64,000 nt of DNA, taken from contig NC_007503.1 of assembly GCF_000012865.1 (NCBI RefSeq), forward strand, positions 1,054,001 through 1,118,000. The letters run 5' to 3'. How positions within the stretch are numbered: position 1 is the stretch's first letter; each line of letters begins with the position of its first letter. Shown here piece by piece: positions 56,427 through 61,847 of this stretch. Source of the DNA: Carboxydothermus hydrogenoformans Z-2901 (GTDB lineage Bacteria > Bacillota > Z-2901 > Carboxydothermales > Carboxydothermaceae). The notes beneath the pieces are model-generated. The model saw nothing but the letters and a program-made list of their open reading frames with translations, made no database searches and was not told the DNA's origin. Made by a program: the position numbers and the translations under genes.

Positions 56427-57032
56427 CTAAAAGACATCCGAGTGTCCCAATCTTTCGGAAATTATTTTTGCGGGAACGCCGGCCGCTAAAAGAAAAGTGG
56501 CGTAAAAATGCCGGAGATCATGAAAACGTGCCTGAATCCCAAGTTTTATTACAGTTTTAATAAATACTCTGGTAACATAGTCAGGTCGCAAAGACAGTCC
56601 ATCTTCATAGATGCAAATATAACCAGTATCATTATAAGCAGGACCAAGATTTTTTATGTTCATTAATTTTTTCCTTTGCTTTTAGTAATTCCTTTTTAAC
56701 TATTTCAGGCATGAAAAACAGCTCTTCCATGACCTGATTTAGGCTCTTTTTCATACGGTTTTCCTTTAACAGAAACAATATTACGACGAACAAAGACTAC
56801 TCCATTATCCATATCTATATCTTCCCATTTTAAGCCAAGGGCTTCCCCTTGACGTAAACCTAAAAAAGCCGAGAGAAAAATTGGCATATACGCAGGTTCG
56901 CCATCAATTGCTTTTAAAATAGATTCCACATCTCTTGGAATTAAAACAAACATTTACTTTTGGTTTTGGCTTTCCTGGTGGTTCAATTTCATCGCGGGGG
57001 ATTTTGGCAACAAGATTCCATTTGAATGCCAT
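56427..57032 (-). pseudogene. Tyrosine recombinase (phage-type integrase) remnant
   Basis: Three pieces in different frames give one integrase. MAFKWNLVAKIPRDEIEPP (from 57032) is followed after a shift near 56953 by IPRDVESILKAI...GLRQGEALGLKWEDIDMDNG, holding the first catalytic Arg. After another shift near 56715 comes EIVKKELLKAKEKINE...LGIQARFHDLRHFYATFLLAAG, holding HxxR, and the end LGHSDVF. The C-terminal catalytic Tyr region is missing. The N-terminal half with the core-binding domain is also absent. It points at tRNA-Pro, so it is the scar of an integrated element. Confidence 0.8.
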
Positions 57033-57456: not shown

Positions 57457-58536
57457 ATGGCAAGTCGTATTGTGCATACCACTAAAATGACTTGGGTATT
57501 GGACCCCCGGGAGCCAATGCTAGGCCCTGTAGTAGATGGGGGAACAATTGTTGCCCGAGTTTCACCCGGGTGCTGGGGTCCTATGATTACTCCTGATTAT
57601 CCTAGTGGTCACGAAGTTACTCATCCTGTTGCAGTTGAAGGTGCTGAAGTAGGAGATGCGGTTTTAATTAAAATAAAGAAAATAAACGTCTTGTCGCTAG
57701 CAACGACATCCGGTACTGACAGTTTTAATGATGGCAATTATGTTGGTGATCCTTTTGTTGCCAAAAGATGTCCGGGATGTGGAGCAATTAATCCCAAAAC
57801 ATATGTAGATGGGATTGGCGAAGACGCCATAAAATGTGTAAACTGCCACACTCCTGTTAAGCCTTTTCATTTAGATAACGGTTACACAATGCTTTTTAAT
57901 GAAGAAAGGACCATAGGTATTACTGTTCCTCCAGAGTTGGCTAAGGAAATAGCAAAACAAGCAAGTCATTTTAGCGCAATTCCCCCTGAATCACATCAGT
58001 ATTCCTCAAACCTTATTGCCAAAGGTGACCTAGCTGGAGTGTTGACTCGTGTTCGTCCGATGGTTGGGAATATTGGCTCATGTCCAGCTGTTCCTATGCC
58101 ATCTTCACACAATGCTGGAGATTTTGGTAGTTTCCTTTTAGGTGCTCCTCATGATTATGCGCTTACTGAGGAACAACTTCTTTTAAGAACAGACGGCCAT
58201 ATGGATATAAACGAAGTTTGTGAAGGAACAATGATAATTGTACCGGTAAAAGTTCCGGGAGCTGGGATATATGTCGGCGATGTCCATGCCATGATGGGGG
58301 ATGGTGAGGTAGCTGGTCATACTACCGATGTTGCAGCTGAAGTAATTATTGAAGTCAAAGTAATAAAAGGTTTAAAAATTGATGGTCCTATCATTTTACC
58401 AAGACCTGAAGACTTACCATATTTAGCCCGTCCATATACTGAAGAAGAGAAGAATAAAGCACGTCATTTAGCAGAGATTTACGGATTTAATGTGGAAACA
58501 GAAATGTACCCACTTCAGGTGTTTCTACTCACATAA
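57457..58536 (+). pseudogene. Acetamidase/formamidase, N-terminal part interrupted by a transposon
   Basis: The first 354 residues match the acetamidase/formamidase family (FmdA_AmdA): GTIVARVSPGCWGPMITPDYPSGHEVTHPV, AEVGDAVLIKIKKINV, a small zinc-ribbon-like insert (CPGCGAINPKTYVDG...CVNCHTP), NIGSCPAVPMPSSHNAGDFG and GDVHAMMGDGEVAGHTTDVAAEV. The true coding part ends at 58519; the frame then runs 17 bp into the transposon, giving a false tail FLLT. The missing C-terminus lies at 61624-61847, in register. A repaired gene would encode 428 residues. Family members release ammonia from short amides. Confidence 0.88.
58514..58519. repeat. Target-site duplication TTCAGG, left copy
   Basis: The 6 bp before the transposon, TTCAGG, are repeated at 61618-61623 on the far side; removing the element and one copy restores the acetamidase reading frame. 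Confidence 0.85.
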
Positions 58537-58567
58537 AATAACCGTCCAATGCTCAGATTTCGTGGCC
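58529..58567 (-). repeat. Left-end repeats (two 17-nt transposase-site-like motifs)
   Basis: ACTCACATAAAATAACC (about 58527-58543) and GCTCAGATTTCGTGGCC (58551-58567) are inverted relatives of the right-end motif; both keep CTCA and a C-rich close. They look like the transposase-binding sites of the left end. A weak third copy (TTTCACATAGTTTGGTC, 59279-59295) lies between the first two genes. Confidence 0.6.
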
Positions 58568-58593
58568 AAATAGAAAAGGAATTTGTTTAGATA

Positions 58594-59274
58594 ATGGCGA
58601 ATAATTGGAGAAAAAATCTAAAGAAGGAGAAAAAGGAAAAGTCTTCGAGTAAGGTTTACGGAGCTGACACTCCCCTTACCGAAGACTTTCCTCCATACCG
58701 TACTTTGATTGTAACTTATCTTGGAGCTTCAGTAAAGGAGTATTTAGAAAATTACTTAAATTTTTTGGAAGAAAACCAATGGTATTGCCCGGTTTGTAGT
58801 GCAAAGATGTCTTTTCACGGATGGTATCGACGAAAAATAATAACCTTAGATGGAACTACTACTAGAATTCCAATAGCCCGCTATCGCTGTTCTAACTGCC
58901 GGAAAACCCATGCCATTTTACCGGATTTTGTTGCGCCTTACCGCCATTATTCCCAGGTTTTGATTGCAGCTGTAGTTGAAGAAGTAGTTTCCAAGCAGGT
59001 ACCGCCAGAACGGGTCGAGGGCAATCAGGATATTCCCACTACTCGGCGATGGATACGCCGATTTCTAAAGCGATGTCATGAGGTTATAGGCGTTTTAGAA
59101 AGTATAGCTTTTAGATACACCGGGCAAATAAAATCGCTTCTAACGGAAGCACGGTCGTCGCCCTGGGAGCAAATGCTTGCGGCTTTAGAACTACTGCCGG
59201 CGGTAAAAGCTACTTCGGTGTTTGGTGCGGTAAATCTCTGGCTGACCATGGACGTGGTCGGCCTCTGGCTTTAA
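58594..59274 (+). CDS. DUF6431 zinc-ribbon protein of the transposon
   Basis: A 226-residue protein. An N-terminal basic stretch (KNLKKEKKEKSSSK) is followed by a zinc ribbon, CPVCSAKMSFHGWYRRK...YRCSNCRKTHAILPDF, then a helical domain with many Arg (PTTRRWIRRFLKRCHE). It matches DUF6431, proteins found next to transposase/ExeA pairs. A DNA-binding or target-choice role is inferred from zinc ribbon and position. ATG 58594; a ribosome site is not clear. Confidence 0.8.
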   Translation: MANNWRKNLKKEKKEKSSSKVYGADTPLTEDFPPYRTLIVTYLGASVKEYLENYLNFLEENQWYCPVCSAKMSFHGWYRRKIITLDGTTTRIPIARYRCSNCRKTHAILPDFVAPYRHYSQVLIAAVVEEVVSKQVPPERVEGNQDIPTTRRWIRRFLKRCHEVIGVLESIAFRYTGQIKSLLTEARSSPWEQMLAALELLPAVKATSVFGAVNLWLTMDVVGLWL

Positions 59275-59362
59275 CTAATTTCACATAGTTTGGTCTCCTG
59301 GCCATTCTTGGGATTGTGGTATGGTGAATTTAACACCATATTTAAACAAGGAGATGGTCAGG

Positions 59363-60700
59363 TTGCCAAAGGAATTATCTTATCAGCAAGAAATTGCTCT
59401 TAAACGTTTTGCTCTGATAGCACCTTTGCTGGAGCCGGATTTAGAAGCGGCGGAAAAGCGCCAACGCCGGAAAGAAATCTTAGCCAGGAGTGAAATTTCC
59501 TCCCGTACCCTGCGCCGCTACTTACAACTTTACCGCCAGCAGGGTTTATCCGGTCTTATGCCAAAAATCCGGTCTGATAATGGAAGCAGTCGTACTATAA
59601 GCCATGAAATAATCGAAGAGGCGGTAAAACTTAAGGAAGAACTTCCGGAACGGAGTGTAAGCCAAATCATAGCGATTTTAGAAGGAGAAAAGAAAGTTCC
59701 TGCAGGAATGTTAGCCCGGTCTACCCTTGGAAGGCATCTTTCTCGTTTAGGCCTAACCCAAAAGGAAGCTAACCAAAAGATATCAGGGCACAGGCGTTTT
59801 GCAAAAGAACAGCGTAATCGCCTCTGGCAAGCAGATATCAAATATGGGCCGTATCTACCGCATCCAAAGAATCCCAAACGCAAAGTGCGAACTTATTTAG
59901 TGGCATTTATCGATGATGCTACTCGTCTTCTTTGTCATGGAGAGTTTTATCTTGACCAGAAGAGGCCAGTTTTAGAAGATTGTTTTCGTAAAGCCATCTT
60001 GAAACGAGGAATCCCGGATGCGGTATATGTAGATAATGGCAAGATTTTTGTTTCCCGCTGGTTTCGTTTGGGATGTGCCAGGCTGGGGATAAGGCCAATT
60101 AATACTAAGCCATATTCACCTGAATCTAAGGGGAAAATTGAAAGGTTTAACCGCACCGTTGAGTCTTTTATAGCCGAAATAGAACTGCAACAACCTGAGA
60201 CCCTGGCAGAACTTAACCAGGCTTTTGCTGTTTGGGTTGAAGAAGGTTATAACCACCACCCGCACAGCTCTTTAGAAAACGAAACTCCGGCTAACCGTTT
60301 CCAGAAGGATACCCGGCGTTTACGGTTTGCCAGCCTGGAAGAATGTCGGGAAGCTTTCCTCTGGGAAGCAAGTCGTCGGGTAGATAAAACAGGATGTATC
60401 AAACTTGAAGGACGGTTTTATGAAATTGGTTTGGAATGGATACGAAAAACCGTTGATCTCCGTTACGACCCTTTTGACTTAGAAAGTATCGAGTTCTGGT
60501 ATAACGGCCAAAAGCAGGGACTGGCCAAGCCTTTGGTTATCCAGGAATACAACAACCTTGCTGCAAAAAATAAAAAAGAGCAAGAAAATAAAACACCAAA
60601 AACTTCCCGCCTCTTAACAGTACTTGAAGAAAGAAGTATTGAACGCCGCCGGCGAAAATTAGGGGCCATACCCTTCCGCCAGCTGGAAGGGGGTAAGTAA
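59363..60700 (+). CDS. DDE (rve-type) transposase
   Basis: A 445-residue DDE transposase with an N-terminal helix-turn-helix (EISSRTLRRYLQLYRQQGLSGLMPK), a second HTH-like region, then an integrase core: first Asp in WQADIKYG, second in VYVDNGKIFVS, Glu in SKGKIERFNRTVE. A mu-C-like beta-barrel tail follows. TTG 59363 is 11 nt after AAGGAG; an ATG at 59354 touches that site, and 59321 would begin inside the promoter region. Cuts and joins the element ends, likely with the ATPase encoded next. Confidence 0.88.
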   Translation: MPKELSYQQEIALKRFALIAPLLEPDLEAAEKRQRRKEILARSEISSRTLRRYLQLYRQQGLSGLMPKIRSDNGSSRTISHEIIEEAVKLKEELPERSVSQIIAILEGEKKVPAGMLARSTLGRHLSRLGLTQKEANQKISGHRRFAKEQRNRLWQADIKYGPYLPHPKNPKRKVRTYLVAFIDDATRLLCHGEFYLDQKRPVLEDCFRKAILKRGIPDAVYVDNGKIFVSRWFRLGCARLGIRPINTKPYSPESKGKIERFNRTVESFIAEIELQQPETLAELNQAFAVWVEEGYNHHPHSSLENETPANRFQKDTRRLRFASLEECREAFLWEASRRVDKTGCIKLEGRFYEIGLEWIRKTVDLRYDPFDLESIEFWYNGQKQGLAKPLVIQEYNNLAAKNKKEQENKTPKTSRLLTVLEERSIERRRRKLGAIPFRQLEGGK

Positions 60701-60702
60701 AA

Positions 60703-61506
60703 ATGTTTGAACACTTTTTTGGTTTTCACCGCACCCCCTTCGGGAGGGATCTGCCGGTAAACTCTTTGTTTACCACTCCTGCCCATGAAGAGCTGGTATC
60801 CAGGCTTAAATATGCAGCGGAAAAACGCCTCTTTGCCCTAATTACCGGCGAAGTAGGAGCAGGTAAGTCCACAGCATTACGGCAACTATTATCGCTATTA
60901 AACCCCAATAAGTACCGGGTTATTTATATTAGCGATTCTGGTCTAACTCCCAGGCATTTTTACTGGGAAGCCCTGCGGCAGCTTGACTGTGAGCCACGCT
61001 TTAACCGGGGACAGGCTAAACGTCAGCTGCATCAGGTTATCCTTGACTTAGCAGAAAATCAACAGAAAATACCGGTAGTTATTGTGGATGAAGCTCATCT
61101 CCTTGACCGGGAAATGCTTGAAGAAATACGCTTTCTTTTGAATTTTCGCATGGATTCGTATAATCCAATGAGTCTAATTCTGGTAGGTCAGCCAGAACTG
61201 CGCCGTATCTTACAACTTCAGGTTTATGAAGCTATTGCTCAGAGGATTAACCTTCGCTACCACCTTCCGCCCATGGAACGGGAGGAAGCAAAAGGCTATG
61301 TGGCCCACCATCTCAGGACAGCCGGGGCAAGTTCAGCAATTTTTACCGATGATGCCTTGGATATGGTCTATGAGTATGCTGGGGGTATTGCCCGGAAAAT
61401 CAATAACCTGTGCATTGCTTGTCTAATGGCAGCTGCAGCCGAACAGAAACGGCTTATTGATGACCGTATGGTCAAGGTAGTAATTGAAAATGAATTTTCT
61501 GTATAA
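60703..61506 (+). CDS. ExeA/TniB-like AAA ATPase of the transposon
   Basis: A 267-residue AAA+ ATPase: Walker A GEVGAGKSTALRQLL near residue 47, Walker B VVIVDEAHLLDREML, and the ExeA end GGIARKINNLCIACLMAAA. Related proteins (TniB, MuB, TnsC) pick the target and stimulate the transposase. ATG 60703 begins 2 bp after the transposase stop, so they are made together. The gene ends before an 11-bp hairpin. Confidence 0.88.
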   Translation: MFEHFFGFHRTPFGRDLPVNSLFTTPAHEELVSRLKYAAEKRLFALITGEVGAGKSTALRQLLSLLNPNKYRVIYISDSGLTPRHFYWEALRQLDCEPRFNRGQAKRQLHQVILDLAENQQKIPVVIVDEAHLLDREMLEEIRFLLNFRMDSYNPMSLILVGQPELRRILQLQVYEAIAQRINLRYHLPPMEREEAKGYVAHHLRTAGASSAIFTDDALDMVYEYAGGIARKINNLCIACLMAAAAEQKRLIDDRMVKVVIENEFSV

Positions 61507-61517
61507 AATTATGTCAA

Positions 61518-61548
61518 TGGCCAGGCAGTATAAAAAACTGCCTGGCCA
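61518..61548 (+). terminator. Hairpin ending the transposon operon
   Basis: Perfect 11-bp stem TGGCCAGGCAG/CTGCCTGGCCA with a 9-nt A-rich loop, 12 bp after the ATPase stop. It overlaps the first right-end repeat (GGCCA). The U-tract is poor, so it may also protect against read-in. Confidence 0.55.
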
Positions 61549-61610
61549 AATAAAGTGAGCAATATTTGCGGCCACTTAATTTGAGCTAAATGTGGTCAAT
61601 TAGTGTGAGC
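61544..61610 (+). repeat. Right-end array of three 17-nt direct repeats
   Basis: GGCCAAATAAAGTGAGC (61544), GGCCACTTAATTTGAGC (61570) and GGTCAATTAGTGTGAGC (61594) recur with 26- and 24-bp steps. They share GG-C-A, a central TA-rich part and TGAGC. Spacing near two helical turns and position at the end of the element suggest transposase-binding sites. Confidence 0.75.
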
Positions 61611-61617
61611 GGTAACA

Positions 61618-61623
61618 TTCAGG
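61618..61623. repeat. Target-site duplication TTCAGG, right copy
   Basis: Second copy of the 6-bp duplication found at 58514-58519. Confidence 0.85.
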
Positions 61624-61847
61624 TTGTAGGCTCGGGTGTAGATTTAAATAAAGCAACAATAAACGGACTTGAAAGAATGGCTAACTTAACAGGCCTTTCA
61701 ATCTCTGAAGTAAAAAACAGAGCAACTATTACCGGTGACATTCAAATAGGCAGGTTACCAGGAGTAGTACAGGTCACCATGTTAACTCCAAGCAGCATTT
61801 TGAAGAAATTGAATTTACTGGAGATATATGAGGAGCAATATAAGTAA
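61624..61847 (+). pseudogene. Acetamidase/formamidase, C-terminal part
   Basis: The last 74 codons (VGSGVDLNKATINGLERMANL...GDIQIGRLPGVVQVTMLTPSS) carry the typical acetamidase/formamidase C-terminus. An open frame runs back to ATG 61590 inside the transposon right end. Joined to 57457-58519, it restores one 428-residue protein without a frameshift. Confidence 0.85.

Follow-up and report, generated by a model that had tools for sequence, protein, structure and literature searches.

A 64,000-nucleotide stretch of the Carboxydothermus hydrogenoformans Z-2901 genome (contig NC_007503.1, positions 1,054,001 to 1,118,000 of the forward strand; we call this whole stretch "the window", and positions below are window positions unless the genome is named) contains an amidase gene that has been split by a 3,098-bp mobile element. 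Our analysis indicates, with a probability of roughly 0.85, that this element, which was active recently, is a compact TnsB/TnsC-type transposon (one with a transposase and an AAA+ ATPase) whose three core genes include one for a protein of the DUF6431 family, and that it cut the amidase gene. As a gene disruption the broken amidase is a routine, ordinary insertion event; the element is more interesting than the break it made.

An amidase gene interrupted by a mobile element

The element occupies positions 58520-61617 (plus strand) and is bounded by a 6-bp target-site duplication, TTCAGG, at 58514-58519 and 61618-61623; a preliminary description of this DNA had reported an insert of this length with these flanks, and it was correct to the base. 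The 5' part of the amidase gene (57457-58519; 354 codons, one TTCAGG copy included) and its 3' part (61624-61847; 74 codons plus stop), both on the plus strand, had there been taken as halves of one gene, and when joined they do make up one continuous frame with 428 codons and a stop. The membership of the product in the acetamidase/formamidase family, proposed there, also stands: Pfam FmdA_AmdA matches the left part with an expectation value (E) of 1.6e-43 (149.5 bits against a cut-off of 27), and the conserved LPGVVQVTML C-terminus lies on the far side of the element, as expected from the homologues. The NCBIfam formamidase equivalog scores 37, far under its cut-off of 500. When the joined protein is aligned with 12 homologues from public genomes, each with the whole gene uninterrupted, both parts align end to end with all of them. 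Identities to the left and right of the junction in the four nearest homologues are 83/78% (L010), 81/80% (L009), 78/80% and 77/78% (L019), and 11 of the 12 are free of gaps within 10 residues of the junction, the distant L017 having one gap. Our genome comparison sets comprised one genome per species, including two further Carboxydothermus genomes, and no ortholog of the amidase was found in those two; one of them has only a 45%-identical partial match.

One might suppose that the amidase pieces have always been separate genes and that the element merely lies between them. Both pieces are indeed open reading frames (ORFs), and the right one has an in-frame ATG inside the element's end, but the perfect 6-bp duplication and the in-frame join argue against such a history, and the 12 homologues, which are single genes that align across the junction, refute it; we give it practically no chance of being right. 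The TTCAGG repeat is weak by itself, but with the element's ends, the joined frame and the homologues it makes the insertion conclusive.

The genome is a single contig of 2,401,520 bp, and the full element is found only once more in it, at genome positions 2339481-2342578, where a copy that is 100% identical over 3,098 bp is flanked by its own 6-bp duplication, CTTTTC. Since an identical element thus has a different duplication, the TTCAGG flanks are not a chance repeat, and the presence of two copies, identical in sequence yet each with a duplication of its own, is direct evidence that the element moved recently. A fairly recent insertion had been proposed before from the perfect duplication and from the still functional look of both halves; the open frames on both sides and the second copy support this.

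Terminal inverted repeats are present at 58520-58532 on the left (TGTTTCTACTCAC) and at 61605-61617 on the right (reverse complement TGTTACCGCTCAC). Exact matches to the subterminal repeat GCTCANNNTNNNTGRCC number four in the whole 64-kb window, and all of them are in the element's ends: one at the left end (58551-58567, plus strand) and three, inverted relative to it and 24-26 bp apart, at the right end (61544-61560, 61570-61586 and 61594-61610, within 61543-61610 on the minus strand). A fifth, degenerate copy, ACTCACATAAAATAACCG (58527-58544, plus strand), read directly from the sequence, overlaps the left terminus. The transposases of Tn7, Tn5053 and Tn552 usually bind at subterminal repeat arrays of this sort (PMC8649781).

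The left amidase piece continues into the element as far as a stop at 58536 (359 amino acids), and the 74 codons it has lost include a stretch that is conserved in nearly all homologues, so the alignments indicate that the interrupted gene is very probably inactive. The in-frame ATG in the element's right end extends the right piece to an ORF of 85 amino acids (61590-61847). In the identical copy elsewhere in the genome the same frame enters unrelated sequence, and for that reason the ATG at 61590 looks like the product of chance. The amidase also has a zinc-ribbon-like CxxC...CxxC stretch (57757-57867; VAKRCPGCG...IKCVNCHTPVKPF) that is present in all 12 homologues; the solved relatives that we found align only outside this stretch.

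A three-gene trio shared with many relatives

The element has three genes in one direction, which encode a DUF6431 protein, a DDE transposase and an AAA+ ATPase in that order; its ORFs and a Pfam scan of the 3,098 bp revealed no TnsA, resolvase or cargo gene among them. The first gene (58594-59274, plus strand) encodes 226 amino acids and matches PF20020 (DUF6431) with E = 1.6e-26 (92.4 bits against a gathering score of 26.6). Its product has a four-cysteine zinc ribbon, whose cysteines C65, C68, C99 and C102 are invariant across distant relatives, and then a helical part like a helix-turn-helix (HTH); the predicted structural model likewise has a beta-rich ribbon, of good local confidence, followed by helices. 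The transposase (459 amino acids; 59321-60700, plus strand) has an HTH, an RNase H-like integrase core and a Mu-type C-terminal domain. Its triad D172, D238 and E274, in which 35 residues separate D238 from E274, is invariant in 15 aligned members, and its closest solved relative by sequence is TnsB. The third gene (60703-61506, plus strand) encodes a TniB/TnsC/ExeA-like ATPase of 267 amino acids with Walker A and B motifs, which matches AAA_22 (E = 6.4e-27). TniB matches were obtained for 5 of the 11 family ATPases scanned, the window ATPase itself not being among them at E 0.001. Just 3' of this gene a perfect hairpin with a 12-bp stem (61518-61548, plus strand; z -5.6) is possibly a transcript end.

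Relatives were sought with the transposase and with PF20020 in 150 genomes of the phylum, as well as in viral contigs and annotated plasmids. The transposase search of the 150 genomes found relatives outside the genus at 32-80% identity, and sequences related to the element and 95-96% identical to it are present in one congeneric genome. Of 20 loci that we inspected in other genomes of the phylum, 17 encode DUF6431 directly 5' of the transposase; the other three begin inside or just before the transposase gene at a contig end. All 12 viral-contig loci with a clear relative have this gene order as well, although two of them have no ATPase or a cut-off one, and four annotated plasmids, from Alicyclobacillus, Geobacillus, Ruminococcus and Streptomyces, carry the trio. 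The trio recurs in Bacillota and Actinomycetota. The reverse search gave 60 PF20020 matches in the 150 genomes, 31 of which lie directly upstream of an ATPase or transposase gene on the same strand; among 17 further matches that were inspected, six have remnants of ATPase or transposase genes downstream and five reach a contig end. The ends were identified in about half of the relatives in which they were sought, and these elements are 2.9-3.4 kb long, begin and end with TGT...ACA and mostly have 6-bp (5-7-bp) duplications; in a control with shuffled flanks, 0-2 of 100 shuffles scored as well. In Ruminococcus gnavus RJX1126 the sialic acid cluster is neighboured by adjacent genes for a DUF6431 protein and a DDE transposase (PMC12323340, Table 1), probably another member of the trio family. 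Our literature search found no description of a DUF6431-transposase-ATPase family; ISfinder was outside that search, and the element may be named there.

These relatives bear on whether the element could instead be a plain IS481-family insertion sequence, with the DUF6431 and ATPase genes as passengers that take no part in transposition. The transposase's catalytic core does pass the cut-off of the NCBIfam IS481 model (242 bits against 224), as do all 15 aligned transposases of the family, and IS481 family insertion sequences have TGT ends, as the element does (PMC11406308). However, the order and tight spacing of the trio persist across phyla and between members whose transposases are only about 35-40% identical, unlike what passengers would do. 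A Mu C-terminal domain is present in the transposase, and the ATPase belongs to the TniB/TnsC kind, a known partner in transposition; the IS481 transposases that we compared lack ATPase and DUF6431 partners, whereas the element has three genes in 3.1 kb. We therefore consider passengers on an IS481 element improbable, at something like one chance in eight, and prefer a TnsB/TnsC-type transposon. In a tree of transposases most of the family group together, while a small set that includes the divergent second copy of the C. hydrogenoformans genome (see below) is not firmly joined to them, and IS481 may lie between the main group and this loosely joined set; the tree is compatible with single-gene IS481 elements having originated either inside the trio family or next to it.

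Relics and other mobile DNA

The genome has a second, divergent DUF6431-transposase-ATPase set at genome positions 2250181-2253047 (L180:682-3547), which is nearer to the Geobacillus plasmid set than to the window element; its ends were looked for and not found. In a congeneric genome a sequence of about 120 bp (L030/L034; G001:C19:17169-17291) consists of the element's left 75 bp joined to some 50 bp from the right end, and by its composition is apparently either a small non-autonomous derivative, like a miniature inverted-repeat transposable element, or a deletion relic. Solo right ends of related elements, about 120 bp long and 85-87% identical, are present at genome positions 2238996-2239121 and 2247417-2247535, and also in L024; the first two, separated by about 8 kb, lie in a region where genes are duplicated. 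Near the amidase, on the minus strand of the window at 56427-56953, overlapping fragments resemble a broken tyrosine integrase (DLRHFYATFLLAAGVPAKIISERLGHS) and are likely a relic of another mobile element.

Relation to known systems and the putative role of DUF6431

The element is a variant of the known TnsB/TnsC type and a well-defined example of a family of transposons with three genes. It resembles Tn552 and Tn5053 (Tn402) in having a DDE transposase with a Mu C-terminal domain and a TniB-type AAA+ ATPase, as well as subterminal repeat arrays and short duplications (partly from PMC8649781, partly general knowledge), but it differs from them in lacking a resolvase, TniQ and cargo and in having the DUF6431 gene first; two reference transposases of the Tn552/Tn5053 group, whose branches are long, did not group with that of the element in our tree. 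With the Tn7-like elements and CRISPR-associated transposons it shares a TnsB-type transposase with a Mu-C domain, TGT/ACA ends and repeated end sites. It lacks the TnsA nuclease that most Tn7-like members have, as well as TniQ/TnsD, its duplication is 6 bp rather than 5 bp, and its ATPase is much smaller, with 267 amino acids against about 540-570 for the ORFs that adjoin TnsB at four Tn7-like loci from the phylum. The pairing of a transposase with an ATPase recalls the two-gene logic of IS21 (IstA/IstB), but the ATPase is AAA_22/TniB-like, no IstB match is listed for it in the domain scans (AAA_22, and TniB in family members), and the transposase scores 56 on the IS21 model where 160 is required. 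Finally, the zinc ribbon and HTH of the DUF6431 protein match, more weakly than PF20020, the N-terminus of ISL3 transposases (E = 1.9e-8); DUF6431 differs from these in having no catalytic domain.

The behaviour of TnsB/TnsC, TniA/TniB and MuA/MuB is a model for the steps that the transposase and ATPase would carry out here. The DDE transposase would bind the end repeats of about 18 bp and pair the ends, nick at their CA-3' termini (TGT/ACA) and join these, staggered by 6 bp, to the target DNA. Choosing or marking the target and activating the transposase would fall to the AAA+ protein, as it does to TnsC, TniB and MuB, and DUF6431, as a third core component, would most likely be a DNA-binding adaptor between the ATPase and either a target site or the ends. 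Because the element lacks both a TnsA-like nuclease and a resolvase, movement would be expected to follow a copying route (through a cointegrate or a copied-out circle) that is resolved by host recombination or repair.

Since the trio recurs in both Bacillota and Actinomycetota, we regard DUF6431 as a core part of this family of compact TnsB/TnsC-type transposons, and judging by the constancy of the protein and by its domains, its most likely role is that of a DNA-binding adaptor, for the target or for the ends. Several observations weigh against this interpretation. The role of DUF6431 is inferred only from its domain content and from the order and constancy of the genes; the predicted fold is of modest confidence (mean predicted local distance difference test score, pLDDT, 66), and a fold comparison of the model gave no significant structural match; the DUF6431 gene stands alone in 6 of the 17 further PF20020 matches mentioned above; and for about half of the relatives tried the ends were not found.

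The protein might instead be a regulator (a repressor) or an accessory that binds the ends, rather than an adaptor that chooses the target. Its ISL3-like zinc ribbon and HTH suggest general DNA binding, and its profile does not resemble TniQ significantly (hhalign probability 18%); on the other hand, it is as constant in the trio as the ATPase is, which fits a core part better than a dispensable repressor. We regard a regulator or accessory as a serious contender that falls a little short of an even chance. The possibility that DUF6431 is a distant TniQ was considered separately, and at that hhalign probability the protein is not recognisably one; the alignment pairs it with the zinc ribbon and HTH that follow the TniQ domain of TnsD-like proteins, which we take as a lead only. 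Pfam TniQ has no match in the element or in the whole genome, and the same search found TniQ in 10 of the 150 genomes of the phylum. A bolder proposal, which we put forward tentatively and think rather unlikely, is that DUF6431 represents an unrecognised class of target selector or adaptor that replaces TniQ in a widespread family of compact TnsB/TnsC-type transposons of about 3 kb, which would make up a minimal transposition system of three proteins under AAA+ regulation.

The TnsB/TnsC-type systems are of interest because their ATPase couples the choice of a target to insertion. With the preferred interpretation of the element as a three-gene transposon of this type, DUF6431, a family without a known function, gains a plausible job as a core part of small TnsB/TnsC-type transposons. 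With only three genes in 3.1 kb and two identical, evidently recent copies, the element would offer a simple setting for studying how targets are chosen when TniQ is absent and how an insertion is brought to completion when there is neither TnsA nor a resolvase.

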